A DNA stretch of 64,000 nt from Ferrimicrobium sp. (GTDB lineage Bacteria; Actinomycetota; Acidimicrobiia; Acidimicrobiales; Acidimicrobiaceae), in assembly GCF_027364955.1 (NCBI RefSeq), contig NZ_DAHXOI010000002.1, positions 62,001 to 126,000 on the forward strand. The letters run 5' to 3'. Shown piece by piece: positions 22,657-50,693 of this stretch; within the stretch, counting starts at the first letter, position 1, and each line of letters starts with the position of its first letter. The translations under genes and the position numbers were made by a program. The notes beneath the pieces are model-generated. The model saw nothing but the letters and a program-made list of their open reading frames with translations, did not search any database and had not been told where the DNA came from.

Positions 22657-22665
22657 GTTGCAGAC

Positions 22666-23244: not shown

Positions 23245-23250
23245 TATAGT
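23245..23250 (+). promoter_or_regulatory. -10 box of the third Phd-VapC operon (leaderless)
   Basis: TATAGT is followed by six bases (GACAAT) and the ATG at 23257, without a Shine-Dalgarno sequence. Confidence 0.62.
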
Positions 23251-23256
23251 GACAAT

Positions 23257-24120: not shown

Positions 24121-24163
24121 GAGGGGCCTTCCACTGGGGATCCTTGGCAGTGGAAGGCCCCTC
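24121..24163. terminator. perfect 16-bp inverted repeat beside att repeat E
   Basis: GAGGGGCCTTCCACTG (24121-24136) pairs perfectly with CAGTGGAAGGCCCCTC (24148-24163) over an 11-base loop. It replaces the acceptor part of the tRNA-Val fragment. It could act as a bidirectional terminator between the converging vapC and DUF5615 operons, although no T-tract follows, or it could be the footprint of a small insertion. Confidence 0.5.
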
Positions 24164-24192
24164 GTACCCCTGAACTGCTGGTTGTAAGCCAG
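24161..24192 (-). repeat. att repeat E: truncated 3' half of tRNA-Val
   Basis: CTCGTACCCCTGAACTGCTGG and TTGTAAGCCAG retain the T-arm to anticodon-stem part of tRNA-Val, while the acceptor end has been replaced by the hairpin. Confidence 0.75.
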
Positions 24193-24314
24193 CGCGAAAT
24201 TGTCCGAGTACGTAGTGATAGTGATCGAGTACGTCTCATTTTTGCAGCTCATTCATGTCCTTTACAAAAATGGTAAGACGTTCCCGAACGCAACTGTTGG
24301 GTGAAAAGTTGGGT
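24193..24314. repeat. element left-end module E
   Basis: CGCGAAATTGTCCGAGTACG, then a changed second motif GATCGAGTACGTCTCA, and GAACGCAACTGTTGGGTGAA plus GTTGGGT. The inverted arm is largely lost (GGTAAGACGTTCC), so this copy is partly decayed. Confidence 0.62.
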
Positions 24315-24399
24315 GCGACGCATCGAGACTGCTGCGGTACGGGTGGCCATGACCTCGTATACCACAATCTGTAGTCAGCCAATCAGACCAGTCCCATCA

Positions 24400-24741
24400 T
24401 CAACTTGACTCCCGCAGTTCCACAACTGCTACATCTGGCTGTCCCAAATATGTCGCCAACTCTTTATGCTTCTTAATGATTGGAGAGGCCATATCCCGCC
24501 AGCGGCAATTAGATATCTGTAAGACAATCACCTTGGGTGGTGGACCGTGCAATGCGGCAAGTTCGCTAAAGTCACTATCTCTAGTTACTATGACAAAATT
24601 ACTTTCACCAGCGAACGACCAAATCTCACTGTCCTTTGCACCTTCGAGTCCGACGAGGCTAACGTGAGAACTTTCCGGAAAATAGGGCTCCAGGATCCCG
24701 AGCATCCGACGCGATAGATTTTCATCTAGAAGAAGCTTCAA
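24400..24741 (-). CDS. DUF5615 PIN-like toxin (second module)
   Basis: The 113-residue protein reads MKLLLDENLSRRMLGILEPY, then LEGAKDSEIWSFA and FVIVTRDSDFSELAAL, the DUF5615 PIN-like pattern with Asp6/Glu7, the KDSEIW acids and TRDSDF. It starts with TTG at 24741, overlapping the antitoxin stop (TTGA). It is diverged from the toxin at 20946 and is not a recent copy. Its antitoxin gene appears damaged, so this toxin may be weak, silent or protected by another antitoxin. Confidence 0.8.
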   Translation of the reverse strand: MKLLLDENLSRRMLGILEPYFPESSHVSLVGLEGAKDSEIWSFAGESNFVIVTRDSDFSELAALHGPPPKVIVLQISNCRWRDMASPIIKKHKELATYLGQPDVAVVELRESS

Positions 24742-24975
24742 GCAGTGACACTCACGCTGCGATGTTCCCGTTCAGCAGCATATGCCAGGCACGCAAGAAT
24801 GTCTTCTTGCTCCAGTTCCGGATAGTCTTCGAGGATCTCCCCCTGTGCCATACCTGAAGCCAACATGGCCAGAACATCATAGACTGTAATACGTAGTCCG
24901 CGGACGCAGGGTTTTCCGCTCCGCTTCCCGGGTTCTATAGTGATGCGTCCGCCGGTATCGATTTCGATTCCTCAT
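24738..24975 (-). pseudogene. DUF433 antitoxin gene without an in-frame start
   Basis: On the minus strand the frame reads IEIDTGGRITIEPGKRSGKP, CVRGLRITVYDVLAMLASGM and ILEDYPELEQEDILACLAYA, an intact DUF433 domain. Upstream, however, an in-frame TGA comes before any ATG, GTG or TTG. The ATGs at 24975 and 24993 are one base out of frame. Removing a single A (GGAATC to GGATC) would restore MRIEIDTGG. Either the gene is frameshifted, or it starts at a rare ATC codon (24968). Confidence 0.72.
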
Positions 24976-24993
24976 TTCACTGGCTAGGGACAT

Positions 24994-25084
24994 TCCCTAC
25001 GTACTACTGTACCTACTTCACTTCCACCGTGCGACACTTACCCCAACAGGAGCTGTCCTCAAAACTAGCATTACCTTTTCTGAA
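24994..25084. other. short spacer between the DUF433 gene and integrase remnant 3
   Basis: No gene. On the minus strand TACAGT lies 12 bases ahead of the out-of-frame ATG at 24993 and may be the old antitoxin promoter. Confidence 0.3.
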
Positions 25085-25429
25085 GAAACCCAGCCCACAA
25101 TCAGAGATGTCAAGCCGATCGTGTCGATCCCAGACCTCTTGGCAGTGTCGAACCTTGGTTGGGCTAAGGTCACCCCAGCCGTACTAGCGACATGTCACGA
25201 TCGCGTCGTTAATGGTAGTTGAGGAGTTCCAAGCAAGCTCCGACTCGATCAGCGGTGCAAGCTTGTCCTCTTGCTCAATCACAAGCCGTGCAAGTTCACG
25301 CTCAGCCTGCCCCCTTGTGCCGCGAAAACGAACGTAGCGATGCTTGACCCTCCCGAGGCTGTCTCGTCCGATGAAAACTCGGAGCTCCCAGGTGTCTGGC
25401 CGGGCCACAAGGCGCATGCTTCCTGCCAT
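25085..25429 (-). pseudogene. truncated tyrosine-integrase gene next to tRNA-Val (remnant 3)
   Basis: From ATG 25429, with GGAGG five bases ahead, the frame reads MAGSMRLVARPDTWELRVFI, then VKHRYVRFRGTRGQAERELA and LIESELAWNSSTTINDAIV. A TAG stop follows, after which YGWGDLSPTKVRHCQEVWDR continues the same protein. This is the arm-binding AP2-like domain and the start of the core-binding domain of a tyrosine integrase. The catalytic domain is deleted. Its start lies 80 bp from the 3' end of the intact tRNA-Val, where a tRNA-targeting integrase gene is expected. Confidence 0.85.
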
Positions 25430-25509
25430 CAAATCCTCCAACTTCGAAACCCCTGTTGGGTTATTTGCTGGGCTTTGGTCTATTGTGATTTAGGAAACAT
25501 GCTCTGACC

Positions 25510-25586
25510 TGGTGGGCGCTAAGGGACTCGAACCCCTGACCTGCTGGTTGTAAGCCAGCCGCTCTAACCAACTGAGCTAAGCGCCC
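25510..25586 (-). tRNA. tRNA-Val (anticodon TAC), CCA encoded
   Basis: The 77-nt minus-strand gene folds as a full cloverleaf. The acceptor GGGCGCT pairs with AGCGCCC, the D-arm is GCTC/GAGC, the anticodon stem GCTGG/CCAGC encloses loop CTTACAA (anticodon TAC, reading GUA), and the T-arm AGGGG/CCCTT encloses TTCGAGT. The discriminator A and CCA are encoded. It is the only complete copy among six related sequences in the window and the target of the array; each incoming element restores its 3' half. Confidence 0.96.
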
Positions 25587-25602
25587 TCACGGTTGCTACA
25601 GT

Positions 25603-29378: not shown

Positions 29379-31844
29379 ATGGCTCGGCGCCCTCTCCTCG
29401 GCACTCTGGGCATTATTGTCGCGCTTCTCGCGCTAGCTGTCCTTCAGCTTCGGGGCATCGCCACCGTGCCGCCGCTCGGCTCGACGTTGGACCCAACCAC
29501 CGGCGCGTTCAATCTCGGTGCGCGAGCAGCCCTGCCGACATCGGCCACCATACACCCCGCCGGCATACCTGCTGCCGTCACAATCTCCTATTCAACTCAG
29601 GGTATCCCCGATCTTCACGCAAGCAATGAACGTGCCCTTTGGTACGCAATGGGATATCTCGAGGCGCGCAATCGGCTTTTCGAGATGGACCTCATCCGCC
29701 GTGAGGCCGGAGGCCAACTGTCAGCTGTTCTCGGACCAAGCTACCTGACCTCCGACCTCTTCGAACTTCGGCTCGGACTCATTCGAACCGCCGAGGCGAA
29801 CTTCCAAGCGCTACCATCAGCTGACAAAGAGATTCTAGAGATTTTCTCGAACGGTGTGAATGCGGCACGTGCCTACGATATCAGCCACCATCAACTCCCC
29901 GTAGAGTTCCGTCTCCTCAACTACACCCCTGCTCCTTGGACACCCGTCGACTCGATGTTGGTCCAAGGGTACTTGACGCAGACCCTCGATTACTCGCAGA
30001 ATCCCGTCGATTACTCGATCCTGGTTGGGCACCTTGGCTTCCAACGGACCATGGACCTGTTCCCGGTGATCGCGAAGAACCAGCAGGAACCATATGATCC
30101 CGGACCGTATCACTTTCACCACACCACCCCCACCGACCCACCCACCACCGTCACACCCTCGCTGCTTGACTCGCTCCAGTCGCTTGCCAACATGAGCACC
30201 AAACTCCCACCAGGAGCCATCCACTCGTTCTCAAACTCCAACAACTGGGCTATCGCGGGAGATAAATCAACCACCGGTAACGCTATTGTGGCAGGCGATC
30301 CGCATCTCAACCAGACACTTCCCGCCGTGTGGTACTGGGTCAACGCGCACGCCCCTGGGGTAAGCTTTGCTGGCGTTACCGTTCCCGGTCTGCCCATCAT
30401 CCTGATCGGGAGAAATCACTGGATTGCCTGGAGCGAGACTGACGTCCAGAACCAATCGACCTTCTTCTACCAGGAGACCACCAGTAAGGCCCATCCTGGC
30501 GACTACCTGCTGCGAGGGAGATGGGTGCCGTTTACAGATTACGACTATACCGTCCAGGTGAAAGGGGGCACCAGTCAGCATCTCGTCGTACAGACAACGA
30601 CCAATGGCCCCATCATCACGATCCACGGCGTCAAGGTAGCTGTTGACTGGATGGGGGCCGCTGTCTCCAAGGATTTTGCCTCACTGATGGGTATCCTCCA
30701 CGCCACGAACTGGAGACAGTTTACGGCTGCGCTCTCGATCTGGCGCGCTCCATCACAAAACTTCGTCTTCGGTGACCGCCACGGCAATATCGGCCTCATC
30801 TCAGCTGGCGACTACCCGATTCTGCGCGCACGTGATCCGTGGTTGGTGATGAACGGTAACGATGGTACCCGCATTGTCGGATCGATTCCCAATAGCGAGA
30901 TCCCGCAAAGCTACGATCCAAGATCAGGTTTTGTCTTCAGTGCAAACCAACGACCGGTCAGTGCGGACTACCCATACTACCTCGGGACCTCTTTTAACTT
31001 CTTCTCTAATGGTTATCGAGCTGACGAGATCCACTCCTTCCTCACTGCTCACCAGCGAGTGACCCCCACTGAGGTCGCTCACCTTCAGAACTCGGTGACT
31101 GACTACCTCGCCACCCAACTCGTCCCATGGCTCGTGCGCCAGTTCAATGGGGTCCATTCCACACCCGCGGTTGAGGAGGCTGTCACGACCTTGCGTCATT
31201 GGAATGGCTCCATGGGCACCACCTCAACGGCGGCGAGCATCTGGTGGACCTTTCTCGGCGACGACATCAGCGACACCTTCGAACCTTGGTTCCGTTACTA
31301 CCACGTTCCCGAACCTTCCGGTAGCTCACTCGTCGTCAATCAACTCAATGCCCCACTGGTCGAGGACCTCCAATACCTGGATATCAACGACCCAGCAAAT
31401 CCATTCTTCACCCCACCAACCAGCCGTTTTCATCGTGATGCTGGTACTGTTGCGCGAGAGGCACTGACACAAGCCGTCGCGAGCCTCGCCCGCAGACTCG
31501 GCGATCAAGAGACGACATGGCACTGGGATCGGCTCCACTTTCGCGAGTTTCCCTCCCTGAGCGGCGTGGCCGGTCTGGGTTATGGACCCCGGGGATCATC
31601 CGGGGATGCCTGGACGGTGGATGCCGCCGACGGAGGTCTGCTCTCAGAGGCCGGTCCGAGTTGGCGGATGATCGTGGCATTCGGCGATCGGGGTGTGGCC
31701 ATCTATCCCGGAGGGCAGTCCGAGAATCCCTTGTCGAGCTGGTATGAGAATCAGATACCCGATTGGTTCGATGGGCACTATTTGCCGTTTGGGCTCGGCC
31801 CTCAGCCCAGCATCGCCACCTGGAGATTGGAGCCAAGCAGATGA
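29379..31844 (+). CDS. penicillin acylase family protein (Ntn hydrolase)
   Basis: The 821-residue precursor has an N-terminal membrane or signal segment, an alpha-chain region with ALWYAMGYLEARNRLFEMDL, and an internal SFSNSNNWAIAG. The Ser just before NNW, about residue 287, would be the autocatalytic nucleophile and new N-terminus of the beta chain. AGDPHLNQTLPAVWYWVNAH follows as in the family. Penicillin acylases and relatives cleave amides such as acyl-homoserine lactones or beta-lactam side chains outside the membrane. Substrate unknown. GAAAGGA precedes the ATG, and TAGGAT at 29347-29352 is a possible -10 box. Confidence 0.87.
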   Translation: MARRPLLGTLGIIVALLALAVLQLRGIATVPPLGSTLDPTTGAFNLGARAALPTSATIHPAGIPAAVTISYSTQGIPDLHASNERALWYAMGYLEARNRLFEMDLIRREAGGQLSAVLGPSYLTSDLFELRLGLIRTAEANFQALPSADKEILEIFSNGVNAARAYDISHHQLPVEFRLLNYTPAPWTPVDSMLVQGYLTQTLDYSQNPVDYSILVGHLGFQRTMDLFPVIAKNQQEPYDPGPYHFHHTTPTDPPTTVTPSLLDSLQSLANMSTKLPPGAIHSFSNSNNWAIAGDKSTTGNAIVAGDPHLNQTLPAVWYWVNAHAPGVSFAGVTVPGLPIILIGRNHWIAWSETDVQNQSTFFYQETTSKAHPGDYLLRGRWVPFTDYDYTVQVKGGTSQHLVVQTTTNGPIITIHGVKVAVDWMGAAVSKDFASLMGILHATNWRQFTAALSIWRAPSQNFVFGDRHGNIGLISAGDYPILRARDPWLVMNGNDGTRIVGSIPNSEIPQSYDPRSGFVFSANQRPVSADYPYYLGTSFNFFSNGYRADEIHSFLTAHQRVTPTEVAHLQNSVTDYLATQLVPWLVRQFNGVHSTPAVEEAVTTLRHWNGSMGTTSTAASIWWTFLGDDISDTFEPWFRYYHVPEPSGSSLVVNQLNAPLVEDLQYLDINDPANPFFTPPTSRFHRDAGTVAREALTQAVASLARRLGDQETTWHWDRLHFREFPSLSGVAGLGYGPRGSSGDAWTVDAADGGLLSEAGPSWRMIVAFGDRGVAIYPGGQSENPLSSWYENQIPDWFDGHYLPFGLGPQPSIATWRLEPSR

Positions 31845-40222: not shown

Positions 40223-41002
40223 ATGGCAGCTATCTATATTCACGGTCATGACCCATCGGTCCTTGCGTCACATCGTTGGCGGGGTGCCGAAAACTCCGCT
40301 GGCTACCTCGTACCCGTCCTGCAAGAGGACGACACCCTACTCGATGTTGGCTGTGGACCAGGAACCATCACGCGCGACTTTGCACAACTCCTCTCCAGAG
40401 GTCGTGTCATCGCCCTCGACCAAACCACGCCGATCGTCAAGGAAGCCGTTGGGGCCAGTCCGTACGGCTTTGGCATCGTTGGTGACGCCTACGCACTACC
40501 CTTTCAGAACAAGAGCTTTGACGTCGTCCATGCTCACCAGGTACTTCAACATCTTCGTGATCCACGACGAGCCGTGAGCGAGATGGCCAGGGTGGCCCGG
40601 CGCTACCTCGCCTTCGCCGACGCCGACTACGACCGGATGCTGTGGTGGCCCACCTCGGAGGGACTCGAGCGCTGGATGCAGGTGTACCAGGGCATCGCTT
40701 CGGCCAATCATGTCAATCCCAACATTGGCCGCGAACTCCCGTCGCTCGCGCTTGCCTGCGGGCTCGCACGCCACAGCGTCAACACCATCACCTGGACCTA
40801 TGCCACACCCGAGCTGTGCCATTGGTGGGGAGGGTTATGGGCTGGCCGGGTGCGACACTCCACTTTTGCGAGCGAGGCACTGCGGCTTGGACTCGCCAAC
40901 GCTGAGGAACTCGACTTCATTGCCCAAGGGTGGCAGAGCTGGGCAAACCAACCTGGAGCGATCTTTGTGATCACATCAGTAGCGATTCTGGCGGAAATTT
41001 AG
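40223..41002 (+). CDS. class I SAM-dependent methyltransferase
   Basis: The 259-residue protein has motif I LLDVGCGPGTITRDFAQLL, a motif II acid in RVIALDQT, DAYALPFQNKSFDVVHAHQV and motif post I LQHLRDPRRAVSEMARV, as in UbiE/MenG-like enzymes. The acceptor is unknown. AGGAGG precedes the ATG by four bases. It follows the DMFase-like gene by 48 bp and ends in a 4-bp overlap with the convergent channel gene. Confidence 0.85.
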   Translation: MAAIYIHGHDPSVLASHRWRGAENSAGYLVPVLQEDDTLLDVGCGPGTITRDFAQLLSRGRVIALDQTTPIVKEAVGASPYGFGIVGDAYALPFQNKSFDVVHAHQVLQHLRDPRRAVSEMARVARRYLAFADADYDRMLWWPTSEGLERWMQVYQGIASANHVNPNIGRELPSLALACGLARHSVNTITWTYATPELCHWWGGLWAGRVRHSTFASEALRLGLANAEELDFIAQGWQSWANQPGAIFVITSVAILAEI

Positions 41003-41976
41003 CGCTTGGACTCCTGGGGGCGAGGGCGAAGTACGAGAATCGTGTCCCCAGATTCGATCACCGGATCCGTCGAGACACCCATGTGGATCTGACCCTGTTT
41101 GACGACGCCGAGCAACAGCCCCTGCTCGATCGAACGGGCCTGACTGAGCGTACGGCCGATCACCCCCGGTTCGGCGGGATATTCGCGAAACATCATCTCG
41201 GGGGAGCGCACCATCTCCAGCAGTAGATCACCAGCGTGGGGAGTCTCGATACTCTTGGCAAGTGTATGCCCCAACAGATCCTCGATCGAGACCGTCGTCT
41301 CCACCCCCAAATCCGTGAGTGCCGTCGCAATCCTCGAGGAGTTGGCGACGGCGATGAGCGGGACAGCCGGTGCAAGATGTCGGAGCATCACAGCGATCAG
41401 CAGTGCGTCCTTCTCATCCTCGACAGCGATGAGAAGCCGCGAGGCCCGCTCTGGCTCCGAGCGCCGGAGGACGGTCTCAAGGGTCGGATCCCCCTTGATC
41501 GTCTCGATCGTTGCCGGGAGACTCTCCAGATTGCTCTCCGCGACCACCACCACCCGCTCTCCCGTGGCGGCGACCTCACTCGCAATCTTGCGCACGGCAT
41601 CGTGCATGCCATAGATCGCAACAAAACTTCCTTTGGGGGGTCCTTCTCGCATGTGCAAGAGCTTAGCGAGCCGAGTGGCGGTGAGCGATGCCGCCAGAAA
41701 GGCAAAGGCGGCGCCAAAGAGTGGAATTGTCGTCACCATCACAAGAATGGCGATCACTCGGCCGACGGTGTTGTGTGGTGTCACATCCCCATAGCCGACG
41801 GTTGTCGCTGTGGTGACCGCCCAGTAAAGACCGATGCCAACACTGACATGCTGGGTAAGGGCAAAGGCGATGGCGCCGATCACCAAACAGGTGATCGAAG
41901 CGACCAACAGCGTCACAATCTGGCTACGTTTGACCTTCGTCAACAGGACAGCAAACAACGTGGGCATGGCAGCCAC
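40999..41976 (-). CDS. two-TM potassium channel with RCK (TrkA-N/TrkA-C) domains
   Basis: The 325-residue protein starts with two membrane helices enclosing the selectivity filter TATTVGYGD. It then has an RCK/TrkA-N domain (FVAIYGMHDAVRKIASEVA to about residue 240) and a C-terminal TrkA-C domain (VIGRTLSQARSIEQGLLLGV to the end). Such channels control potassium flux gated by calcium, NAD(H) or nucleotides. The Rossmann glycine pattern is degenerate (YGMHDA), so the ligand is uncertain. Confidence 0.87.
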   Translation of the reverse strand: MAAMPTLFAVLLTKVKRSQIVTLLVASITCLVIGAIAFALTQHVSVGIGLYWAVTTATTVGYGDVTPHNTVGRVIAILVMVTTIPLFGAAFAFLAASLTATRLAKLLHMREGPPKGSFVAIYGMHDAVRKIASEVAATGERVVVVAESNLESLPATIETIKGDPTLETVLRRSEPERASRLLIAVEDEKDALLIAVMLRHLAPAVPLIAVANSSRIATALTDLGVETTVSIEDLLGHTLAKSIETPHAGDLLLEMVRSPEMMFREYPAEPGVIGRTLSQARSIEQGLLLGVVKQGQIHMGVSTDPVIESGDTILVLRPRPQESKR

Positions 41977-42025: not shown

Positions 42026-43243
42026 TTACTGGCGAAAATCAGGAGTCAGCTGCACGGTTCCAGAACGACCCCGCAGATCCAGCACTGCCCCTTCGAAGGG
42101 GCCAAGGTTGCGAAGGTCGCCGCGACTCATCAGCGGTCGCGCCCGTCGATGGGTGCTCGTTGTGAGCCGCAAGAAACCTCCGCGCTGCCACCCCACCTCC
42201 TCTCGGTTCACATCCCCGAAGAGCTCCTCCAACATACGCAGGGTCTCGATGTCCCCGATCCCACCGAGGACCATCGTCGTGCCAAAGAGTGTCAAAAGGC
42301 CTCGCATGAGTTGTGGCCATCGAAGTCTCGCCTGTGAAAGATCTTGCAGGGCACCGAGTAGGTGGACACCTTGACTGACCCCTTCGGAGAGTAGCGAGCC
42401 AAGCGAAGGGAGCGGAGCTATGTTGGCCATCTCATCGAGCAGCAAGGCCACCATCGGCTGTATCCCCATGACGGTAGCGCGATAGGCGGCACGACGAATC
42501 TCGTCGATCAGCGCGACTACCACCGGAGCAACGACCGTCTGCACGAGGGACGGCGAGACAATGAGGAGCAGATCACGACTCACGACAAAACGTGAGGGTG
42601 CAAACTCCTCTCCCTGATCCTGGTCTCGGAAACGGTAGGCCCCAAGGGCACCCGAGGTCGAGGAGATGATCGCCGATCGCTCCCTCGCCTCGGTCCCTAA
42701 GATCCCCTGAAGTACGCCAAGGGCGCGTACCTCTCCGGCGAATTGGAGAGTATCGGTCGCCTCTCCAAATTCACGCCCGTCGACCCATTGGGCAATCACC
42801 GTCGCTGACACTCCGAGAAGATTGCCAGCCAGCAAAAGCGGAGCGAGAAGGGCCTTCGCTCGATCAATCCAGTGTCGATCCGATGAGCCCCCAACGCCGA
42901 GCGCTACGGCGACAAAACCCTCAGCCACCAGGACCGCCTCTTCGAAACTGGTTGCTGCCATGACAGGGGACCAGCTCGCGCGACGGACCCCCTCCATGAG
43001 TGGCACCTCTCCGCTCGGGTCAAAAACCCAAACCTTGCCGACCTCGAGACGGCGGGCCAAAATAGCGTCCAGGATATCATTCTTCGTCGAAGTGACGACG
43101 ACAGCCCCAGGAAAAAGGCGTGCATTGGGAATGACCAACGAGGAGGTCTTCCCAGACCTTGGCGGACCTAACACCAGCAGATGTGACCGATCAGAGGTAA
43201 AGAACGGGGCACCACTGGCCTCTCTCCCCAGGTAGAACACCAA
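42026..43243 (-). CDS. orphan VirD4/TraG-type coupling ATPase
   Basis: The 405-residue protein has Walker A VLGPPRSGKTSSLVIPN, TSTKNDILDAILARR and Walker B VALLLDEMANIAPLPSLGSL, with sensor-like QDLSQARLRWP, as in VirD4/TraG type IV coupling proteins (TraM-recognition family). The usual N-terminal membrane helices are missing or reduced, and no relaxase or T4SS genes lie nearby. It closes a tightly spaced operon of envelope and metabolic genes (3 bp after the racemase). It may be a soluble DNA or protein pump of unknown purpose. Confidence 0.75.
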   Translation of the reverse strand: MVFYLGREASGAPFFTSDRSHLLVLGPPRSGKTSSLVIPNARLFPGAVVVTSTKNDILDAILARRLEVGKVWVFDPSGEVPLMEGVRRASWSPVMAATSFEEAVLVAEGFVAVALGVGGSSDRHWIDRAKALLAPLLLAGNLLGVSATVIAQWVDGREFGEATDTLQFAGEVRALGVLQGILGTEARERSAIISSTSGALGAYRFRDQDQGEEFAPSRFVVSRDLLLIVSPSLVQTVVAPVVVALIDEIRRAAYRATVMGIQPMVALLLDEMANIAPLPSLGSLLSEGVSQGVHLLGALQDLSQARLRWPQLMRGLLTLFGTTMVLGGIGDIETLRMLEELFGDVNREEVGWQRGGFLRLTTSTHRRARPLMSRGDLRNLGPFEGAVLDLRGRSGTVQLTPDFRQ

Positions 43244-43246
43244 AAC

Positions 43247-44377
43247 CTACTCGATAACGAGCTCTTGGTTTAACAGCGCGTCGATCTCGTCCCGGGCTAC
43301 ACCGATCTCGGCCAGGATGCCTGTCGAGTCGTAGACAAGCTCACGCCGGAGCCGTCGCTCCTCTTCGTCGTAGTTTCCAAAACGAGGAGCTGGCCCCGGT
43401 TGACGCAGTTCTCCCACCTTGACAAAACTCCCTCGCTCCTGATGAAGTGGGTGATCGAGTGCCTCAACCATGGTCAACACCGGCGTCACGCAGGCATCCG
43501 ACGTTGCAAACACCGACTCCCACTCCGCTCGTGTGCGACGGAGGAACCGCTCCGTGAAGGCCCTACGCATCTCCGGCCAACGACCCTGATCATACTGATT
43601 CGCAGTAGTGAAGCGCTCCCCAAGGTCGAGCACCTCAACAAGCTCCTTAAAGAACTGGGGCTCGAGTGCCCCCACTGCCACCCAGCGACCATCCTTGGTG
43701 CCATAGGTGCAGTAGAAAGGGGCGCCGCCATCAAGGAGATTGCTTCCTGGCCCAGACGACCAACCTCCCTCCTGAAACATCGAGTAGATCATCGTCATGA
43801 GCAACAGTGAACCATCGACCATCGCCGCATCTACCACCTGGCCCTTTCCGGTCCGGTGGGATTCGATGAGCGCGGCGAGCACGCCAGCCACAAGCAACAT
43901 GCCACCGCCGCCAAAATCTCCGACCAGATTCAGTGGAATAGATGGTCCGTGGACCTCGTCCCCGATGGAGCCCAATACGCCGGACATCGAAATATAGTTG
44001 ATATCGTGTCCCGAACGCGCTGCTTTTGGTCCATCCTGACCCCATCCAGTCATCCGCCCGTAGATCAACCGTGGATTGACGACCATCAGTTCCGAGGGTC
44101 CAAGTCCTAACCGTTCCATAACGCCCGGGCGGAACCCCTCAATCAGGATCGACGAACGCTCCACAATCCGTCCTATCAACTCAGCAGCGCCGGGTTTCTT
44201 GGCATCGATGGCGATGGCGCGCTTTCCCCGACCCATCAGATCGGCACCGATTCCCGGTCGCTTGGGCGGATCGATTCGGATCACCGTCGCTCCAAGGTCA
44301 GCAAGGATCATGCCAGCAAATGGGGCAGGACCAATCCCCGCCATCTCAACGACCCGAATACCCTGTAGTGGCCCCAC
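43247..44377 (-). CDS. CaiB/BaiF CoA-transferase family protein (alpha-methylacyl-CoA racemase-like)
   Basis: The 376-residue protein starts GPLQGIRVVEMAGIGPAPFA and has LADLGATVIRID, YGRMTGWGQDGPKAARSGHD and INYISMSG, which match bacterial alpha-methylacyl-CoA racemases (AMACR), including the catalytic His in SGHDINY and the Asp in VGDFGGGG. It would invert 2-methyl branched acyl-CoAs for beta-oxidation. The stop lies 3 bp before the coupling ATPase gene. Confidence 0.87.
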   Translation of the reverse strand: MGPLQGIRVVEMAGIGPAPFAGMILADLGATVIRIDPPKRPGIGADLMGRGKRAIAIDAKKPGAAELIGRIVERSSILIEGFRPGVMERLGLGPSELMVVNPRLIYGRMTGWGQDGPKAARSGHDINYISMSGVLGSIGDEVHGPSIPLNLVGDFGGGGMLLVAGVLAALIESHRTGKGQVVDAAMVDGSLLLMTMIYSMFQEGGWSSGPGSNLLDGGAPFYCTYGTKDGRWVAVGALEPQFFKELVEVLDLGERFTTANQYDQGRWPEMRRAFTERFLRRTRAEWESVFATSDACVTPVLTMVEALDHPLHQERGSFVKVGELRQPGPAPRFGNYDEEERRLRRELVYDSTGILAEIGVARDEIDALLNQELVIE

Positions 44378-44380
44378 AAC

Positions 44381-45253
44381 CTACCCCCCCGCTTCGGCGA
44401 TTGTTTTTAGCATCTCTGCCGCCAGCCTATCCCAGCACCAAGCGGGTAGGTCATGCCCGAGATCGGCAAAGAGAAGGAGTCGCGAGCCCGCCAACACCCG
44501 AAAGGTATCGATGCCCCCAGATACGTTGACGAGCGGATCGATCACCCCGTGTACAACCAGCGAAGGCAAGGCCGCAAGCGTCGACAGTGCAGTAGAACGG
44601 TCAGGCGAAGCGAGCACGGCGCTCAACTGACGCACACTTGCCACCGGGTCATCAATGCCGGCCGCCGCCAACCGAGCGGCACCTCGATCGATGCGATCGA
44701 GGATCGCTTGTCGTTCTTGCGTTGAACGAGGCCGACCGACAACCAACTCTAAGGGTTCCTCGCGGTTCGGGTTCATGAGCGCTGCGAGGGCCATCTCGCT
44801 CGGCTGGCCAACACCGGTGCGTCCAGTGGAACCGAGCATGCTAATCAACGACAGAACACGTTTGGGCTCCTCGATGAGGAACTGCTGCGCCACCATCGCT
44901 CCCATCGAAACGCCAACGAGGTGGACTTGATCGATGCCGAGACGATCAAGTAACTCGAGCAGATCGTCTGCCATATCCGCCAACGTATAGGGAGCGAGGT
45001 CACGGCGTCCCATATAGATCGACAACAGATCGGGAATACCTACGCTCGTCAATCGGGTCGAAAGCCCACTATCACGCTGGTCATAGGTCAAGACCTGATA
45101 ACCAGCCCCAACAAAGCGCGCGATGGCAGGCCCTGGCCAGTCCGTTAACTGACCGCCAAGACCATGAATCAACACAACTACTGGGCGATCCGGTGGACCC
45201 GTACGTTCGTAGTGCAGCTGCACCTGGCCCACCTCACGCACTGGCACACTCAC
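44381..45253 (-). CDS. alpha/beta-fold hydrolase
   Basis: The 290-residue hydrolase has the oxyanion motif VLIHGLGGQLTDWP, TYDQRDSGLST, the nucleophile elbow LVGVSMGAMVAQQ, the acid in VVHGVIDPLVNVSG and a His in ADLGHDLPAW, a complete Ser-Asp-His triad. Its substrate is unknown. Its start overlaps the 3' end of the methyltransferase gene by 20 bp, and the racemase gene follows 3 bp after its stop. Confidence 0.85.
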   Translation of the reverse strand: MSVPVREVGQVQLHYERTGPPDRPVVVLIHGLGGQLTDWPGPAIARFVGAGYQVLTYDQRDSGLSTRLTSVGIPDLLSIYMGRRDLAPYTLADMADDLLELLDRLGIDQVHLVGVSMGAMVAQQFLIEEPKRVLSLISMLGSTGRTGVGQPSEMALAALMNPNREEPLELVVGRPRSTQERQAILDRIDRGAARLAAAGIDDPVASVRQLSAVLASPDRSTALSTLAALPSLVVHGVIDPLVNVSGGIDTFRVLAGSRLLLFADLGHDLPAWCWDRLAAEMLKTIAEAGG

Positions 45254-46037
45254 AGATGAGGGTCACCGTTGGATTGACAAGCATGCGACCCGCTTGGATG
45301 GCTGCCTGTATGGCCCGATCCTCCGTCGGCGCCAGGCAGAGCCTTTTCCTCGTGGAGATGATCTGTTGGGCAGGGTCCATGGAGCGTCGCAATCCAGGTC
45401 CGATCACCACCTTTGGGGAGACACCGAGCACCGTCAATGCCTCGATAACATCAGTTGCGCTGGGATCCGTCGGACGCTGGAGCTGATGGAACTCCTCCCA
45501 AAGCAAATTGAGGCCATAGTGTGGATGATGCAGGGTCATTTCAAGCACGACTCCTACCTCAGCATGGGCAAGGAGTCCCTCGAGAAAACCGAAGAGATCC
45601 GAGATGTTATAGATAACGTTCTGCGAGGTGACCACGTCAAAACGTCCAAGCTCCGGTTCAAGGTCGAAGAAGTCACCGACTCGCGTCTCGACTAACAGCT
45701 CAGGCGATGCTTCACTCTCAAGGGCGAGCACCTCAAGCATCTCCGCATTCTGATCGAGAGCCAGTAGAGAACGAATAGCGGAGCCAATCGGAAGAACTGC
45801 CGCACCAGCACCCGCCCCAACATCGAGAACACTGCGGTGCGCAGACCGAGCGAGCAGCTCGACAAGGGCCAACTGGGTCTGGTTCAGTGGCACGTCCCTG
45901 AGTGGGCGAAACCCATTGGGGTCAAAGGTCCATGGCGACTCCGGGGCCTTAGCGAGTAGCTCCTCGGGTATCGCCCAATCCTGGAGCTGTCGAGACCACC
46001 GCTGCGCTAGCGCGCTCCGAACTGCGTCATCAGGCAT
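45234..46037 (-). CDS. class I SAM-dependent methyltransferase
   Basis: The 267-residue protein has motif I SVLDVGAGAGAAVLPIG, the acidic strand end SLLALDQNAEML and FDVVTSQNVIYNISDLFGFL. The SAM-binding core is clear, but the acceptor is not. The ATG at 46037 overlaps the preceding PH-SHOCT stop (TGATG), so translation is coupled. Confidence 0.8.
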   Translation of the reverse strand: MPDDAVRSALAQRWSRQLQDWAIPEELLAKAPESPWTFDPNGFRPLRDVPLNQTQLALVELLARSAHRSVLDVGAGAGAAVLPIGSAIRSLLALDQNAEMLEVLALESEASPELLVETRVGDFFDLEPELGRFDVVTSQNVIYNISDLFGFLEGLLAHAEVGVVLEMTLHHPHYGLNLLWEEFHQLQRPTDPSATDVIEALTVLGVSPKVVIGPGLRRSMDPAQQIISTRKRLCLAPTEDRAIQAAIQAGRMLVNPTVTLICECASA

Positions 46038-46738
46038 CAGTAGCGCGTTCCCTGTTCCCCATCGAGCTCACGCAACAAGGACGACTTCGCCCGCTCAAAC
46101 TCCGTATCGCTCAAGAATCCTCCTGCCCGTAGGATCGTTAACCGCTCAAGCCGACTGAGCGAATCCGTGTTGGTGTTGACGGCCGAGGAAGCACCGCCAG
46201 ACCCTGCCTGCTGGGCATCCTCCAGGCTGGCAAGGAGCTGACGCAATCGTATAGGATTCGGGACAAAGGTGATGAGTTCATCACCAAAGGCGTCACCTGA
46301 GTCGATGTGCAGGCGTCCAAAATGAAGAATTCTGCCGATAATTCCCTGTTGGGTGGTGATATCATTCACGTGGCGCAACGGAATCTCACTGGTCTTACGC
46401 AGCAGTACCCCTCGCGAAAACCGAACACGCCGATCGGTGATCACCAACATCTCAAAGTACCACTGCAAGCCGCGGAAGAGCATGTTCACCACGGCGGCCC
46501 CCAGGATGAGCAGACCGAAGAGGCTGAGCAGAGCATAGTTAAAGGTAGTCAAGACAACCGCGACGATGCTCGCCGCCACAAAGGTCGCCGCAGGTCCGAG
46601 CACCAACCACCAGTGTGGGTGGACGATGGCAACCACCCGCTCATCCGGATCAACCATCGCGCCGACGATGCGTTGTGTGCGACCCGACAGCTGTCCGAGA
46701 CTTGGCGTCATTGGCTCGTGGGCGGTCATAAAGGTCAC
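46037..46738 (-). CDS. PH-domain (bPH2) membrane protein with C-terminal SHOCT
   Basis: The 233-residue protein has two adjacent membrane helices (WLVLGPAATFVAASIVAVVL and YALLSLFGLLILGAAVV) followed by a bacterial PH domain: YFEMLVITDRRVRFSRGVLL, TSEIPLRHVNDITTQQGI, DSGDAFGDELITFVPNPIRL. A C-terminal SHOCT motif, LERLTILRAGGFLSDTEFER, probably mediates assembly. Such proteins are common in actinobacteria, and their role is unknown. The gene follows ddl by 1 bp. Confidence 0.82.
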   Translation of the reverse strand: MTFMTAHEPMTPSLGQLSGRTQRIVGAMVDPDERVVAIVHPHWWLVLGPAATFVAASIVAVVLTTFNYALLSLFGLLILGAAVVNMLFRGLQWYFEMLVITDRRVRFSRGVLLRKTSEIPLRHVNDITTQQGIIGRILHFGRLHIDSGDAFGDELITFVPNPIRLRQLLASLEDAQQAGSGGASSAVNTNTDSLSRLERLTILRAGGFLSDTEFERAKSSLLRELDGEQGTRY

Positions 46739-46739
46739 T

Positions 46740-47849
46740 CTAGGCTAGTTTTTGTGCGATCGTCGCCGCCGACTGCAAAACACTCCCATCCGCCCCTTGC
46801 GTCACTGGAGTGTAGGTGGGTCGCTCCCGAGCTTCGCGGATATCCTTGGCCAGCTGTTCTGCCAGCGTCTCCTTCGGTTCGATGAACAGATAGTGGGACA
46901 GAGAGCCGGGAATCGTGTTCACTTCGTTGAGAAAAAGATCGCCGTTCTCACTCGCGAGAAAATCAATCCGCGCCACTCCACGAGACCCGATGAGGGCCGC
47001 AGTCCTCGTGGCCACCTCACGAATCTGCTCCTCAGTTTCGGGTTTTAAGAGCGCCGGCAACTCTCTCGGCGCCGCCGCCATCCCGGTGCCCGGCCGATAC
47101 TTATCTGAGTAGGTCAGGATCGCTGCCATACCGCCGGAACGGGTTGGCCGTTCAATGGCCGAAAGTTGGAGCTCAGGATAGCTTCTAATAGCGATCTGGA
47201 GATCATAGAGATCCTCCCGAAACGGCTCCACCACCGCTCCTGTGCGTAGATGCACGCTGTCACGAACCCGATCCCGGAGTGTCCCCCGATCACGAATGAC
47301 CTCAATGCCGATGGATGAACCACCAAAACGTGGCTTCACGATGTACGGCCCCTCGAAGGGGATCTCCCCATCAGCAGCAACACGCGGCAGCGCCGGAAGT
47401 CCTGCTCCGACAGCCAGGGCGCCAAAGCTCAGTTTGTCCATCCCGATAGCGGCGGTGGCCGTCGAAGGACCGGTATACCGAAGACCCGCAAGATCCATAG
47501 CTGCCTGAATCGATCCATCCTCTCCAGGGCCACCATGACAACAATTGACAACCACATCGATGGAGATCATCTCTAGCTTTGGTCGCAAACCCGACGAAAG
47601 GCTACCAAATCCAGCGCGACTGCCCGTGATGAGCATCAACGGTTCAGCTCCTGATGGGACCCCTTGAGCGAAGGCCGGCGCCTCTAGGGTTGGTGCAACA
47701 CGATAGAACTCACCCGTCTTGGACCAGTAGATGCCCGTCACCGCGCTCTCGGTTCCAAGCAACGCATGCGCCGCCTGCAACCCCGTCAGGATCGAGATGT
47801 CATGCTCGGGCGAAGGTCCTCCAAAGAGGACCGCAATCATCGCACTCAT
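46740..47849 (-). CDS. ddl: D-alanine--D-alanine ligase
   Basis: Ddl joins two D-Ala for the peptidoglycan stem. The 369-residue ATP-grasp protein reads IAVLFGGPSPEHDISILTG at the start, VNCCHGGPGEDGSIQAAMDL, YIVKPRFGGSSIGIEVIRD, ARIDFLASENGDLFLNEVNT and IPGSLSHYLF at the metal and D-Ala sites. The Ser in PGSLSHY and the nucleotide loops are intact. It is clustered with the Mur ligase gene upstream, the next enzyme in the pathway. Confidence 0.92.
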   Translation of the reverse strand: MSAMIAVLFGGPSPEHDISILTGLQAAHALLGTESAVTGIYWSKTGEFYRVAPTLEAPAFAQGVPSGAEPLMLITGSRAGFGSLSSGLRPKLEMISIDVVVNCCHGGPGEDGSIQAAMDLAGLRYTGPSTATAAIGMDKLSFGALAVGAGLPALPRVAADGEIPFEGPYIVKPRFGGSSIGIEVIRDRGTLRDRVRDSVHLRTGAVVEPFREDLYDLQIAIRSYPELQLSAIERPTRSGGMAAILTYSDKYRPGTGMAAAPRELPALLKPETEEQIREVATRTAALIGSRGVARIDFLASENGDLFLNEVNTIPGSLSHYLFIEPKETLAEQLAKDIREARERPTYTPVTQGADGSVLQSAATIAQKLA

Positions 47850-47905
47850 ATACGCTCCACCACTTCAACGGCCATACTGGAGTTCCTTTCCACAGTTCAA
47901 CTATA

Positions 47906-47957
47906 GGGCCCAAACAGAGAGCCCAAACAGAGGGCCCAAACAGAGGGCCCAACTCAC
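47906..47957. repeat. 13-bp tandem repeat, four copies
   Basis: GGGCCCAAACAGA occurs at 47906 and 47932, GAGCCCAAACAGA at 47919, and a fourth copy diverges at its end (GGGCCCAACTCAC, 47945-47957). Each full unit contains the palindrome GGGCCC. The repeats lie in the 237-bp gap upstream of ddl. Confidence 0.75.
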
Positions 47958-48086
47958 AGCGTCACCGGCGGTGTCGCAGGCTGATCCAGGCTGCTACCCG
48001 CAACACGCTACCCGATCTGGGCTACGTCTCAACTCTATCGGATGCCAGTCGCCCAGAAGTCGGAGCGTATCGGGAGCGGCGCGCAC

Positions 48087-49688
48087 CTACGGGTAATGAT
48101 CAGGCAGATCGTTCTCGTAGAGAACAACGTCACCCGGCTTCGCCGTGCGCTTGACCTGCGCAATCGCAGCCGTTCGATCCTTGACGGTGAGCACTTTTCT
48201 GAGACGGCAGCCTTGGGCATCCGCCTGCGCCTCGGCGGCCCCTTCAATCAGTGCAGCTCGGTTCGTCTTGGCAACCACGATCAACTCGTCAGCGACGCGA
48301 CCTACCGCCTTTCCAAGCGCGTAGTTCTCCGGGTATTGACGCGTACCAAGCTCCACCATGCCAGGAGTAACGACAAACTTGGTCGACGTTTCGCCACCGC
48401 GTCGGTCAAGAGCCGCGAGCGCGCGACGAGCTCCCGCAGGATTCGAGTTGTAGGTGTCATCGATGACCTCCACACCACTCTCGGGGACCACTGCCGTCAC
48501 CAGTCGGTTCGCTGGTGAGGCGATGAAGGCGAGGCGAGCACAGATGGCCTCGCCGGTGACACCGCACTCAAGCGCAGCGGCGATCGCACAGGCTAAGTTC
48601 GTAGGAGCGATGTCGCCAGCATCAATCTTGTCAAGCTTCTGGCCCCCAAGATAGATGACCAACTCCCCCTCTTCATTGGGCTTGACCGTCACGTCTACGT
48701 CAAGCTGGACCGCCGAGACCTTAATGATCTTTCGCTCAGTCGCGCTGCCGGCAAGTGCCTTCGCAGCGAGAGCAAGGCGGGGGTAGTCCACATTGATGAT
48801 CACGACCGATGCCTGCTCTGTGATCTCAAGTTTCGCCCGCAAAATTGATGCCTCGGACCCAAAGCGTTCGAGATGGACAGGGCCAAGCGCGGTCAGTACC
48901 GCGATCTGGGGTGGGATCCAAGAACAAAGTGCGGCAATCTCTCCCGGCCCAAAAGTACCCATCTCAGCGATGAAGACCTCAGTACCTGGCACCAGTCGTT
49001 CATTGATAGAACGGGCAAGACCTCCCCGGTTGTTGAAGGACGCTGGTGAGGCGATGGCACGCACAGATCCCTCGAGCAGGGTCGCCAGATAGTTCTTCGT
49101 CGTCGTCTTACCAAAGGAGCCAGTGATGCCAACCACCTTTGGACGGATGCGCAGGAGTCGCTCCGTCGCATCATCCACATAGCGCCCGAGTAGACGGTCC
49201 TCGAGCGGTTGGGTTGCGATGAGTCCAAGCTCGACCATCAAGGGTGCCAGGTAGCCACTTAACAAGGCAAACCCGAGAGGGGCCCCAATGAGCCAGCCGA
49301 TGAGCGTCACCAGGGCATCGATAACTCCTACCGTCACCAGCAGGCGCCTCATCCGCGAGGTCAGTGCGAGTTTCGAGGTTCGGCCCCGAAACCCAAGACC
49401 GACTGGTGCGGCTAACAGACAGAGCACCAACAGCGCAGCGAGGCCGAGATGCGCGTCGGTCCCAAAGGAGCGAACAAAACTTCCGACCAGGAGTATCAAA
49501 CCGACAACGAGCAACGCCTGGTTGATGAAGGAAGCTCTGAACCAAAGTGCGAAAAACCCACCGATACGCCCGGGAAGATAATGCTCCCGTTGGGCGACAC
49601 GAACCCACTTCAGTGCCGGAAGCTGAGCGATCACACCGATTATGACGGCCGCTACAACAGCAAGCTCGTGACCCATTGCTTTGGTCAA
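48087..49688 (-). CDS. membrane-anchored Mur ligase (MurF-like)
   Basis: The 533-residue protein has an N-terminal part with four to five membrane segments (to about residue 165), then a Mur ligase core: VVGITGSFGKTTTKNYLATL (P-loop), INERLVPGTEVFIAEMGTFG, LTALGPVHLERFGS, IDDTYNSNPAGARRALAAL and the ending YENDLPDHYP. The order matches MurF, which adds D-Ala-D-Ala to UDP-MurNAc-tripeptide, and ddl lies next to it. The membrane domain is unusual for MurF, so a related envelope ligase is possible. Confidence 0.78.
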   Translation of the reverse strand: MTKAMGHELAVVAAVIIGVIAQLPALKWVRVAQREHYLPGRIGGFFALWFRASFINQALLVVGLILLVGSFVRSFGTDAHLGLAALLVLCLLAAPVGLGFRGRTSKLALTSRMRRLLVTVGVIDALVTLIGWLIGAPLGFALLSGYLAPLMVELGLIATQPLEDRLLGRYVDDATERLLRIRPKVVGITGSFGKTTTKNYLATLLEGSVRAIASPASFNNRGGLARSINERLVPGTEVFIAEMGTFGPGEIAALCSWIPPQIAVLTALGPVHLERFGSEASILRAKLEITEQASVVIINVDYPRLALAAKALAGSATERKIIKVSAVQLDVDVTVKPNEEGELVIYLGGQKLDKIDAGDIAPTNLACAIAAALECGVTGEAICARLAFIASPANRLVTAVVPESGVEVIDDTYNSNPAGARRALAALDRRGGETSTKFVVTPGMVELGTRQYPENYALGKAVGRVADELIVVAKTNRAALIEGAAEAQADAQGCRLRKVLTVKDRTAAIAQVKRTAKPGDVVLYENDLPDHYP

Positions 49689-49697
49689 CCTCCCGGA

Positions 49698-50480
49698 CTA
49701 GGACCCGATTACTCTAGTCGTAATCAGCTCCGCAATCGACTGAGGATCCTCAAGTGGGACCAGATGATGAACCCCATCGAGCACCTTGAGCGTTGCCCAG
49801 GAACTGGCGCTTGCCACCTGGCGTGCCAATGCAACTGGACACGCTTGATCAAGCGCACCCCAGAGCATCCAGATCGGCCGCTGAACCAAGAGGAGATGAT
49901 CGAGATACTCCTCCTTCACCACCGCGACAAAGATCTGACGCATCACACCACGAGCCTGGCGGTAATCGTCCGAGCCGTAGCGTTGCCGCGCTCGTTCCAG
50001 GCGCTCCTCGGAGACCACCCCCAACCCCGCAAGCGATCGAATGAGTCGGTAGCCCAATGGTGACCTTGCCTGATTCGGCGGTCGGATAATGGGTACACCA
50101 ATGAGTACAAGCGCATCGGTGAGCTCTGGGGCCACCACGCTGGCCAGTTCAATAGCGACCCGACCACCAAACGAATGGCCGACCACCACCACACGACCAA
50201 CCCCTGCCTCGTGGCGCCACTCACGGATGACCTCTGCGACCGCCTGCGCATAGCCCACCGAGTTCAGGGCGGTCAGTGGCTCCGGTGAATCCCCAAAGCC
50301 GGGGAGATCGAGCGCAAGAATCGAGAGATCCTCACCCAGCAATTCGATCACCTTGGACCAATCATGCAGGTCACGGCGCCAACCATGAAGAAACACTACC
50401 CCGAGGCTACCCGCATCGCGCGAACGTCCCACCATGGAGGAGATGGCCGAAGAGGGTTGTGTGAACGAGATCGTAAACAA
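49698..50480 (-). CDS. alpha/beta-fold hydrolase
   Basis: The 260-residue protein has VVFLHGWRRDLHDWSKVI, LALDLPGFGDSPEP, the nucleophile elbow VVVGHSFGGRVAIE, the acid in LWGALDQACP and His in LDGVHHLVPLEDP. The triad is complete, as in small esterases and MenH-like enzymes. The start is uncertain (TTG 50480 or ATG near residue 16). It precedes the Mur ligase gene by 9 bp and may act on an envelope lipid or peptide; this is inference. Confidence 0.82.
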   Translation of the reverse strand: MFTISFTQPSSAISSMVGRSRDAGSLGVVFLHGWRRDLHDWSKVIELLGEDLSILALDLPGFGDSPEPLTALNSVGYAQAVAEVIREWRHEAGVGRVVVVGHSFGGRVAIELASVVAPELTDALVLIGVPIIRPPNQARSPLGYRLIRSLAGLGVVSEERLERARQRYGSDDYRQARGVMRQIFVAVVKEEYLDHLLLVQRPIWMLWGALDQACPVALARQVASASSWATLKVLDGVHHLVPLEDPQSIAELITTRVIGS

Positions 50481-50495
50481 TGCAGCGGCTACGAC

Positions 50496-50693
50496 TCAAT
50501 CCTCCGAATCTTCGTCACGCCCATAGGAGGATGGAGCAGCCTGGAGCTCTTCGTCATCGAGATAGGCCATACACCAATCGGCATGCCCATGGACCGAATC
50601 CCCTCCACACTCCTCACAGCGAATGAGTGGCATTGGAATACCTCGCTTTGCCTTTCGCGCCTCTTCGTATCGACGATGACGACCCTTCTTCAC
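50496..50693 (-). CDS. small Cys-rich, basic-start protein
   Basis: The 65-residue protein begins MKKGRHRRYEEARKAKRG and has CEECGG and a later HADWC, which together could hold one zinc ion. Similar short proteins starting KKGRHRR(F/Y)EEAR occur widely in actinobacteria, without known function. GGGAG precedes the GTG start at 50693. It lies 15 bp ahead of the hydrolase gene and is probably the first gene of the envelope run. Confidence 0.7.
   Translation of the reverse strand: MKKGRHRRYEEARKAKRGIPMPLIRCEECGGDSVHGHADWCMAYLDDEELQAAPSSYGRDEDSED

Follow-up and report, generated by a model that had tools for sequence, protein, structure and literature searches.

A soluble coupling ATPase, a relaxase and a reduced type IV secretion system (T4SS) are encoded at three separate chromosomal loci of Ferrimicrobium sp. 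(Acidimicrobiaceae), and probably form one vertically inherited, conjugation-type system for the transfer of single-stranded DNA (ssDNA). The stretch analysed (the window; 64,000 nucleotides, positions 62,001 to 126,000 of contig NZ_DAHXOI010000002.1 in assembly GCF_027364955.1) carries the ATPase gene, the product of which would be the displaced coupling ATPase of the relaxase. It is called VD4sol here, a name given to this VirD4/TrwB-type ATPase without a transmembrane anchor and to its orthologs. The reading is founded on protein families and fold, intact motifs, co-occurrence, largely fixed synteny, purifying selection and the adjacency of relaxase and ATPase genes in a second family; transfer as such, the cooperation of the three loci, the DNA substrate and the direction of transport are what we infer from these observations. 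Conjugation machinery is held nearly always to belong to mobile elements. The present findings do not point to a stray plasmid remnant: related acid-loving bacteria keep the ATPase, the relaxase and a small secretion channel at separate chromosomal sites, and thus seem to possess a DNA-transfer machine of a kind usually found on plasmids.

VD4sol is encoded by the open reading frame (ORF) at 42026-43243 of the minus strand, which is of the VirD4/TraG type according to Pfam (TraG-D_C, 2.7e-15 and 56.8 bits at a cut-off of 22; T4SS-DNA_transf, 6.6e-13 and 48.7 bits at a cut-off of 20.1; TrwB_AAD_bind, 8.7e-6). The NCBIfam coupling-protein models match it only below their cut-offs. In an alignment of 22 orthologs, the row starts of which are the analyst's choice of start codon, the Walker A motif GPPR[SC]GKT and the Walker B region LDEMANIAP are invariant, except for the alternation of Ser and Cys at one Walker A position. 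An earlier note, made from the window's sequence, had described a coupling-protein-type ATPase with intact Walker motifs, and both the profiles and the alignment bear this out. Because most of the aligned rows open at a shared MF, the GTG at 43240 is the likely start and is preferred to the TTG at 43243. The same note had placed the gene 3 bp after an AMACR-type gene, in a closely spaced run to which ddl and a Mur ligase also belong; the arrangement stands, with the gap becoming 6 bp from the revised start, as it also is in the close relative L035. As judged by its Walker motifs, family profiles and predicted TrwB-like cytosolic fold, VD4sol is a member of the type IV coupling protein (T4CP) class, for which hexamer formation, ATPase activity and relaxase binding are predicted properties.

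In all 22 aligned orthologs, 23-42 residues precede Walker A and contain no hydrophobic segment, and the N-terminal transmembrane domain (TMD) of a classical VirD4 is found in none of them (0/22). The AlphaFold2 model, built from the 22 sequences, has a mean pLDDT of 89.1 and a pTM of 0.87. A phmmer search of the PDB with the window protein gave no match, unlike the comparison of folds, in which Foldseek ranked Cag-beta and TrwB at the top. In VIA-align, the cytosolic domain of TrwB is matched over model residues 1-405 (Z 30.3, rmsd 3.1, 365 aligned residues), residue 1 being aligned to TrwB residue 108, and the other folds score lower (Cag-beta 26.5, DndH 24.5, VirB4 21.9, HerA 20.4). According to the model, VD4sol is in effect a natural TrwB minus the membrane domain. 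TrwB of plasmid R388 is the VirD4-type coupling protein that serves the relaxase TrwC. VD4sol resembles it in the cytosolic fold, the Walker motifs and the presence of a MOB_F (TrwC) relaxase in the same genome, and differs in the missing membrane domain, the chromosomal location and the separation from its T4SS. T4CPs without a TMD are a described subfamily, into which the anchorless VD4sol fits (PMC7434980). TraJ of pIP501 is an example, its task being split with the membrane-associated TraI (PMC7434980, PMC4981023); VD4sol, as a soluble VirD4-type ATPase, would likewise call for a membrane partner. Unlike TraJ, VD4sol is chromosomal and encoded apart from the T4SS, the T4SS locus has a second VirD4, and no conserved small membrane-partner gene lies directly beside VD4sol.

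The own genome (3.08 Mb, 84 contigs) contains four TrwC matches and three VirB4-type matches, all outside the window, in agreement with the earlier note, which had seen no relaxase or T4SS genes near the ATPase. A MobA/VirD2-type relaxase (PF03432) was not found in this genome, the one searched, nor in the window, where VD4sol is the sole TrwB-type match of the own-genome search; the Pfam scan covered part of the window's ORFs. At the scale of the genome, the description of VD4sol as an orphan does not hold, since a short MOB_F relaxase on contig C1 and a T4SS on contig C18 are both present. The relaxase exceeds the cut-offs of NCBIfam MobF (126.6; cut-off 100) and PF08751 (130.1; cut-off 25) and matches TrwC in the PDB at 5e-14. 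The HUH (HxH) motif is present in 34/36 relaxases and the N-terminal Tyr pair in 21/36, the other proteins having one or more Tyr within residues 1-80; the own-genome protein keeps both. TrwC/TraI relaxases carry a C-terminal helicase. Pfam finds no such domain in three own-family relaxases, and nine relaxases of family f4 are just 333-427 residues long.

The C18 locus is a reduced T4SS of the SCO6880/6881 type, in which genes for a VirB2-like protein, a VirB6-like protein, an SCO6880-family protein, a VirB4-type ATPase and a VirD4 form a single run. Downstream of the run lies FlgK (Pfam), followed by genes that read like FlgL, FliW, CsrA and CheA. A hydrophobic segment (19-residue mean of at least 1.6, starts taken from the longest ORF) is present in the T4SS-locus VirD4 of 15/17 own-family-type loci but of only 3/10 f4 loci; VirD4s of the element type mostly have two or three. 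In six Acidithrix-type loci (genomes G213, G216, G217, G219, G220 and G221; the loci include L064/L255/L256) the Walker A of this VirD4 reads GPTQSFKT, with Phe for the conserved Gly before Lys, and the aligned VD4sol proteins of the group retain GPPRCGKT. To judge from these motifs, VD4sol may be the motor in Acidithrix-type genomes and the T4SS-locus VirD4 the dock. In L157 (G193:C26:5000-24900) the relaxase and a T4SS are adjacent, the relaxase gene divergently adjoining a VirB6-like/VirB4 cluster and an LPG-synthase-like gene.

Two further loci of the own genome look like mobile elements. L063 (G000:C10:8000-27900) is an ICE- or plasmid-like cluster (ICE, integrative conjugative element) encoding SCO6880-family, VirB4, ArdC-like, VirD4 and DnaG-like proteins. 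L065 (G000:C2:171000-190900) encodes a VirD4-like ATPase of 800 residues, which has two hydrophobic segments at its N terminus, and also contains an ORF of 903 residues that gives a VirB4-type match. A VirD4 of its own is present in both the C18 and the C10 cluster, and VD4sol was therefore rejected as a protein displaced from a T4SS cluster that lacks one, the form in which the earlier note had put the possibility of displacement. The idea survives in another form. No coupling-protein gene lies beside the C1 relaxase in the own genome, so that displacement from the relaxase, with VD4sol as its coupling protein, comes near to what the data indicate.

Co-occurrence of the three parts was examined in overlapping samples. 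The order sample consists of 397 genomes, with 130 VD4sol-type matches at 1e-20, 199 TrwC and 158 VirB4 matches; the 109 matches at 1e-45 or below were counted as orthologs and the 21 weaker ones (1e-20 to 1e-45) were not, a version dropping them giving the same picture. Among the 109 carriers, TrwC is present in 107, VirB4 matching that of C18 in 105 and all three in 103, the corresponding numbers for the remaining genomes being 92/288 (TrwC) and 53/288 (VirB4). The two carriers without TrwC, G270 and G508, are 85% and 82% complete; VirB4 is missed in G332, G442, G498 and G519. Outside f1, the clade of the own-family-type VD4sol, and f4, the TrwC and VirB4 counts take in mobile elements. All three parts are found in 18/18 own-family genomes. 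The class sample has 198 genomes, of which 30 match VD4sol at 1e-10 and 18 were taken as orthologs (at least 38% identity; 16 placed by the VirD4 tree, G141 and G165 by identity); TrwC and VirB4 each occur in 18/18 of these, versus 31/180 and 13/180 of the others. The third set, 27 named assemblies with VD4sol, includes Ferrithrix thermotolerans and Acidithrix ferrooxidans, overlaps the other sets and is termed own-family-type since its VD4sol falls in f1; L062 (Enteractinococcus, 28% identity) was excluded. TrwC is found in 26/27 and VirB4 in 27/27 of them, and the one miss, G202, is also missed with the own relaxase as query.

The locations of VD4sol, the relaxase and the T4SS are largely stable across the family. 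In the 17 own-family-type T4SS loci fetched, a C18-like VirD4 is labelled in 17/17 and VirB4 in 15/17, with a VirB4 search match lying in the other two. A divergent response regulator/kinase pair adjoins the T4SS in 14/17, two of the other three beginning at a contig edge, and FlgK lies downstream in 12/17 and in none of the f4 loci. Since the same regulator/kinase pair adjoins the T4SS in 11/12 f4 loci, this position seems older than the split of the own family and f4. For the relaxase, 26 own-family-type loci were compared (L234, L237 and L243 end early at contig ends); L185 (a second G199 copy), L245, L246 (G208), L247 (G215) and L248 (G218) showed no conserved-locus neighbour and were left out. 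PafBC is present in 16 of the 26, mostly with CtaG, BipA and AMP-ligase; in the own genome some 20 kb separate the relaxase from PafBC-CtaG-BipA. Six Ferrimicrobium-type relaxase loci lie near genes for an AsnC regulator, class-III aminotransferase, carboxyltransferase, amine oxidase or LPG-synthase-like protein, and G014 has the order AsnC-aminotransferase-TrwC-CtaG-BipA.

In f4 the relaxase and VD4sol are neighbours. The PafBC cluster, one member of which was checked by Pfam, is present in 11/11 f4 loci and a TrwC-cluster gene in nine. In all six loci measured, of the nine with both clusters labelled, TrwC and VD4sol are convergent and overlap tail to tail by 37-116 bp (6/6), and the distance from PafBC to TrwC, which comes after it, is -89 to +39 bp (longest-ORF starts). 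Five loci of f16 and f58 (L273-L275, L279, L280) have the two genes in the same orientation, with TrwC immediately upstream of VD4sol. The TrwC ORFs of L273-L281 (f16, f58, f59, f78) are 929-1143 residues long, several of them directly upstream of VD4sol, and are multicopy in some genomes; these look like mobile versions of the pair. The simplest history, as far as gene order and sequence can tell, would be that the relaxase-VD4sol neighbourhood is ancestral and that, in the own family, VD4sol was relocated afterwards to its place as the last gene of the ddl run. Recruitment of the ATPase for another transport task, which the earlier note had considered, is disfavoured by the f4 overlap together with the frequency of TrwC and VirB4 among the 109 carriers. 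Its other suggestion, a conserved chromosomal protein, agrees with the orthologs in 109/397 order genomes, the largely conserved own-family synteny and the purifying selection described below. A related explanation is that VD4sol has a task of its own, in the cell envelope or on protein substrates, unrelated to the relaxase and the T4SS, and that co-occurrence reflects common descent. T4SSs that move proteins exist, and the run with ddl and the Mur ligase is kept in many own-family-type loci; among the loci examined, however, this envelope neighbourhood is limited to own-family-type genomes and perhaps f80, whereas VD4sol adjoins the relaxase in f4, f16, f58 and f79, and this explanation is highly improbable.

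All parts of the set are under purifying selection. In comparison with G568, dN/dS (NG86) is 0.070 for VD4sol, 0.078 for the CoA transferase, 0.025 for ddl, 0.05-0.21 for the T4SS parts and 0.19 for the relaxase; with G198, where dS exceeds 1 for many genes, it is 0.058 for VD4sol and 0.16 for the relaxase. The pairwise distances of VD4sol correlate with those of TrwC (r 0.93, n=17), VirB4 (0.96, n=15) and the CoA transferase (0.97, n=14), and those of TrwC, VirB4 and the T4SS-locus VirD4 correlate with the CoA transferase at r 0.95-0.97, each with p 0.0005 by 2000 permutations. In the VirD4 tree, from which six partial or duplicate rows were dropped, the f1 VD4sol clade (support 0.991) joins f4 and others (0.865) next to the C10 element type, and the T4SS-locus VirD4 is separate from VD4sol. 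In the relaxase tree, which leaves out three proteins not matched by the motif regular expression, 15/20 own-family-type proteins form one clade (0.982). The machinery is chromosomal and vertically inherited, as in a domesticated system of the Ced kind, with the relaxase tree being less clean.

A rival explanation is that the three loci stem from integrative mobilizable or conjugative elements that inserted long ago, became immobile and persist by chance. In f16 and f78, with several copies per genome, both the relaxase and VD4sol appear to be mobile; the own genome holds the element-type VirD4/VirB4 loci on C10 and C2 (171-190 kb) and three further TrwC matches; and distant homologs occur on actinobacterial plasmids, with at best 33% identity in the best 12 of 320 records. 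Against this stand the purifying selection on all parts, with dN/dS of VD4sol (0.06-0.07) on par with that of its CoA-transferase neighbour, the largely kept synteny, the distances that track the CoA transferase, and the retention of all three parts throughout the own family, so that the explanation is unlikely. An integrase was not seen among the scanned neighbouring genes; not all neighbours were scanned and att sites were not searched.

If the three loci do form one transfer system, the MOB_F relaxase would nick chromosomal DNA and remain on the 5' end of one strand. VD4sol, as a soluble TrwB-like ATPase, would take the relaxase-ssDNA complex and drive it, docking on the VirD4/VirB4/VirB6-like inner-membrane channel encoded on C18, with its VirB2-like subunit. 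The ssDNA would then leave the cell, to a sibling cell or to the surroundings.

Several observations weigh against a single three-locus system with VD4sol as the relaxase's coupling ATPase. The T4SS-locus VirD4, rather than VD4sol, might serve the relaxase. It lacks a clear membrane segment in 2/17 own-family-type and 7/10 f4 loci (longest-ORF starts), and the division into an anchored and a soluble VirD4 is therefore not general. No VirB8- or VirB1-like gene was recognised in the C18 locus, and a genome-wide search for either was not made. No oriT was recognised, and an alignment of the stretch upstream of the relaxase in five close genomes did not reveal a clearly conserved block of non-coding sequence. 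Evolution of the relaxase is faster than that of the genes around it (88% versus 96-99% identity to G568; dN/dS 0.16-0.19). Five own-family-type relaxases (G205, G206, G207, G210, G211) fall outside the main clade despite the same gene neighbourhood, and the relaxases that adjoin VD4sol in f16, f58 and other families are interspersed with mobile-type ones, so that the ATPase has the cleaner history of the two. The f16 and f78 genomes carry several copies of both VD4sol and TrwC, and the TrwC matches of G208, G215 and G218 lie outside the conserved locus and may be mobile ones. Finally, co-occurrence is correlated with phylogeny, and the Fisher p-values are descriptive and not independent tests.

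The archaeal Ced/Ted systems are likewise chromosomal, domesticated conjugation machinery with VirB2-, VirB4- and VirB6-like parts (PMC9905601); the Acidimicrobiales set differs in being bacterial, in having a relaxase and coupling ATPases, in its dispersal over three loci and in a function predicted from its genes. Ced imports DNA by means of a chromosomal VirB2/VirB4/VirB6 set (PMC9905601), and C18 encodes parts of these same kinds, with a VirD4 in addition. By analogy, the T4SS and the soluble ATPase could pull DNA in and the relaxase process it. Import is nevertheless rather unlikely, because a relaxase and coupling ATPases are donor-side parts and the authors of PMC9905601 state, in the passages cited, that they know no apparent archaeal relaxase homologs. 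The conserved chromosomal T4SS of Patescibacteria is similar in being of the monoderm type, with the coupling protein often far from virB4, and is dissimilar in that most lack a relaxase (PMC12102498), which is present in nearly all VD4sol genomes.

The C18 T4SS is of the type to which SCO6880 and SCO6881 belong, and a further comparison is with cmdABCDEF/SCO6871-6884 of Streptomyces, where SCO6880/SCO6881-type membrane proteins are encoded on an actinobacterial chromosome. S. coelicolor SCO6878, SCO6880 and SCO6881 resemble cmdB, cmdC and cmdD, and cmd mutants mis-segregate their chromosomes (PMC2782261). The Acidimicrobiales set could accordingly be a DNA pump for chromosome partition or differentiation, without transfer between cells. 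The phenotype of cmd is one of differentiation and segregation and the cited passages name no relaxase (PMC2782261), whereas the Acidimicrobiales retain, together with the ATPase, a relaxase whose motifs are intact; a partition pump is quite unlikely. The gonococcal genetic island of Neisseria shares with the Acidimicrobiales set a chromosomal relaxase and a T4SS that moves chromosomal ssDNA (PMC12857230), but is an F-like island and not three separate loci kept across a family; the same review lists other systems that move chromosomal DNA.

For the three-locus transfer system a wider role can be put forward tentatively. The relaxase, the soluble coupling ATPase, the second VirD4 and the reduced T4SS may constitute a family- to order-wide conjugation system owned by the cell, which would export chromosomal ssDNA for exchange among kin, perhaps in connection with DNA damage as in archaeal Ced. 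The connection is proposed because, in the apparently ancestral arrangement, the relaxase adjoins pafBC, the mycobacterial counterpart of which is an ssDNA-sensing activator of the DNA-damage response (activated by ssDNA; PMC11804915). The mycobacterial PafBC-dependent promoter consensus has no match with two or fewer mismatches in promoter position at the starts of VD4sol, the relaxase or the T4SS (window and eight loci), so the link to PafBC is one of gene neighbourhood. If the wider role is correct, the set would be a bacterial, relaxase-equipped counterpart of domesticated conjugation machinery, with a known kind of source for its ssDNA substrate, and these Acidimicrobiales would be able to exchange genes through a set inherited vertically across a bacterial order. 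The Ced/Ted authors are aware of no such domestication in other organisms (PMC9905601). A 2011 survey sought actinobacterial T4SS-based ICEs by VirD4, VirB4 and TrwC plus an integrase and found 17 (PMC3218068). A full-text literature search, covering few subscription journals, gave no title or beginning of an abstract that describes such a system among the matches listed.

Other origins of VD4sol were considered and rejected. No relative was found in viral contigs in a search with two short patterns. Plasmid origin was rejected as all 320 matching plasmid records are below 60% identity; in two of them, H1 and H3, there is a gene for a longer protein (608 and 619 residues by coordinates), and PLSDB's incomplete table annotates no gene of either record as a relaxase. 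A defence system was rejected, the PADLOC matches being weak (mad8 for the ATPases, HerA for VirB4) with nothing more.

Features of the window and of the partner loci
Feature	Position	Strand	Size	Basis or remark
VD4sol	42026..43240	-	404 aa	GTG start; Pfam, 22-ortholog alignment, model, TrwB fold match
Walker A GPPRSGKT	43145..43168	-		residues 26-33 counted from TTG 43243
Walker B region LDEMANIAP	42413..42439	-		residues 269-277 counted from TTG 43243
Potassium-channel-like protein (Ion_trans_2, TrkA_N)	40999..41976	-		downstream of VD4sol; also a neighbour in close relatives and G014
CoA-transferase family III (CoA_transf_3, AMACR-type)	43247..44377	-		upstream neighbour of VD4sol in most own-family loci
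Alpha/beta hydrolase	44381..45253	-		same run as VD4sol
Methyltransferase	45234..46037	-		same run as VD4sol
Bacterial PH-domain protein	46037..46738	-		two hydrophobic segments; same run as VD4sol
D-Ala-D-Ala ligase (ddl)	46740..47849	-		same run as VD4sol
Mur ligase, middle and C-terminal domains	48087..49688	-		same run as VD4sol
Alpha/beta hydrolase upstream of Mur ligase	49698..50480	-		same run as VD4sol
MOB_F (TrwC) relaxase	C1:171904-174060 (L160:8905-11061)		718 aa	
VirB2-like protein	C18		108 aa	two hydrophobic segments; DUF6112 above cut-off; TrbC/VIRB2 4.8e-4, below cut-off
VirB6-like protein	C18		357 aa	polytopic; SCO6881 family 6.7e-7, below NCBIfam cut-off
SCO6880-family protein	C18		415 aa	above cut-off
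VirB4-type ATPase	C18		384 aa	PDB VirB4 match 6.5e-10
VirD4	C18		432 aa	one membrane segment

VD4sol is the last gene of a minus-strand run in the order abhydrolase, Mur ligase, ddl, PH-domain protein, methyltransferase, abhydrolase, CoA transferase and VD4sol, the synteny of which is largely kept within the own family. In L282 (G258:C17:343000-362000), of family f80, bPH-ddl-Mur ligase genes are found within a few kb of a VD4sol match, which hints that the ddl neighbourhood predates the own family. Elsewhere in the window, the region 16353-25600 looks like a tRNA-linked island with genes of the toxin-antitoxin type. It contains small ORFs and direct repeats, is partly lower in GC and lies beside tRNA-Val (25510-25586). 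An exact repeat of 300 nt, with copies 5.1 kb apart, covers small ORFs that recur as a set and include one encoding a PIN domain; a 160-nt repeat has copies at 20203, 21522 and 25399, the last overlapping tRNA-Val. A penicillin amidase family protein (PF01804, 1e-171) is encoded at 29379-31844.

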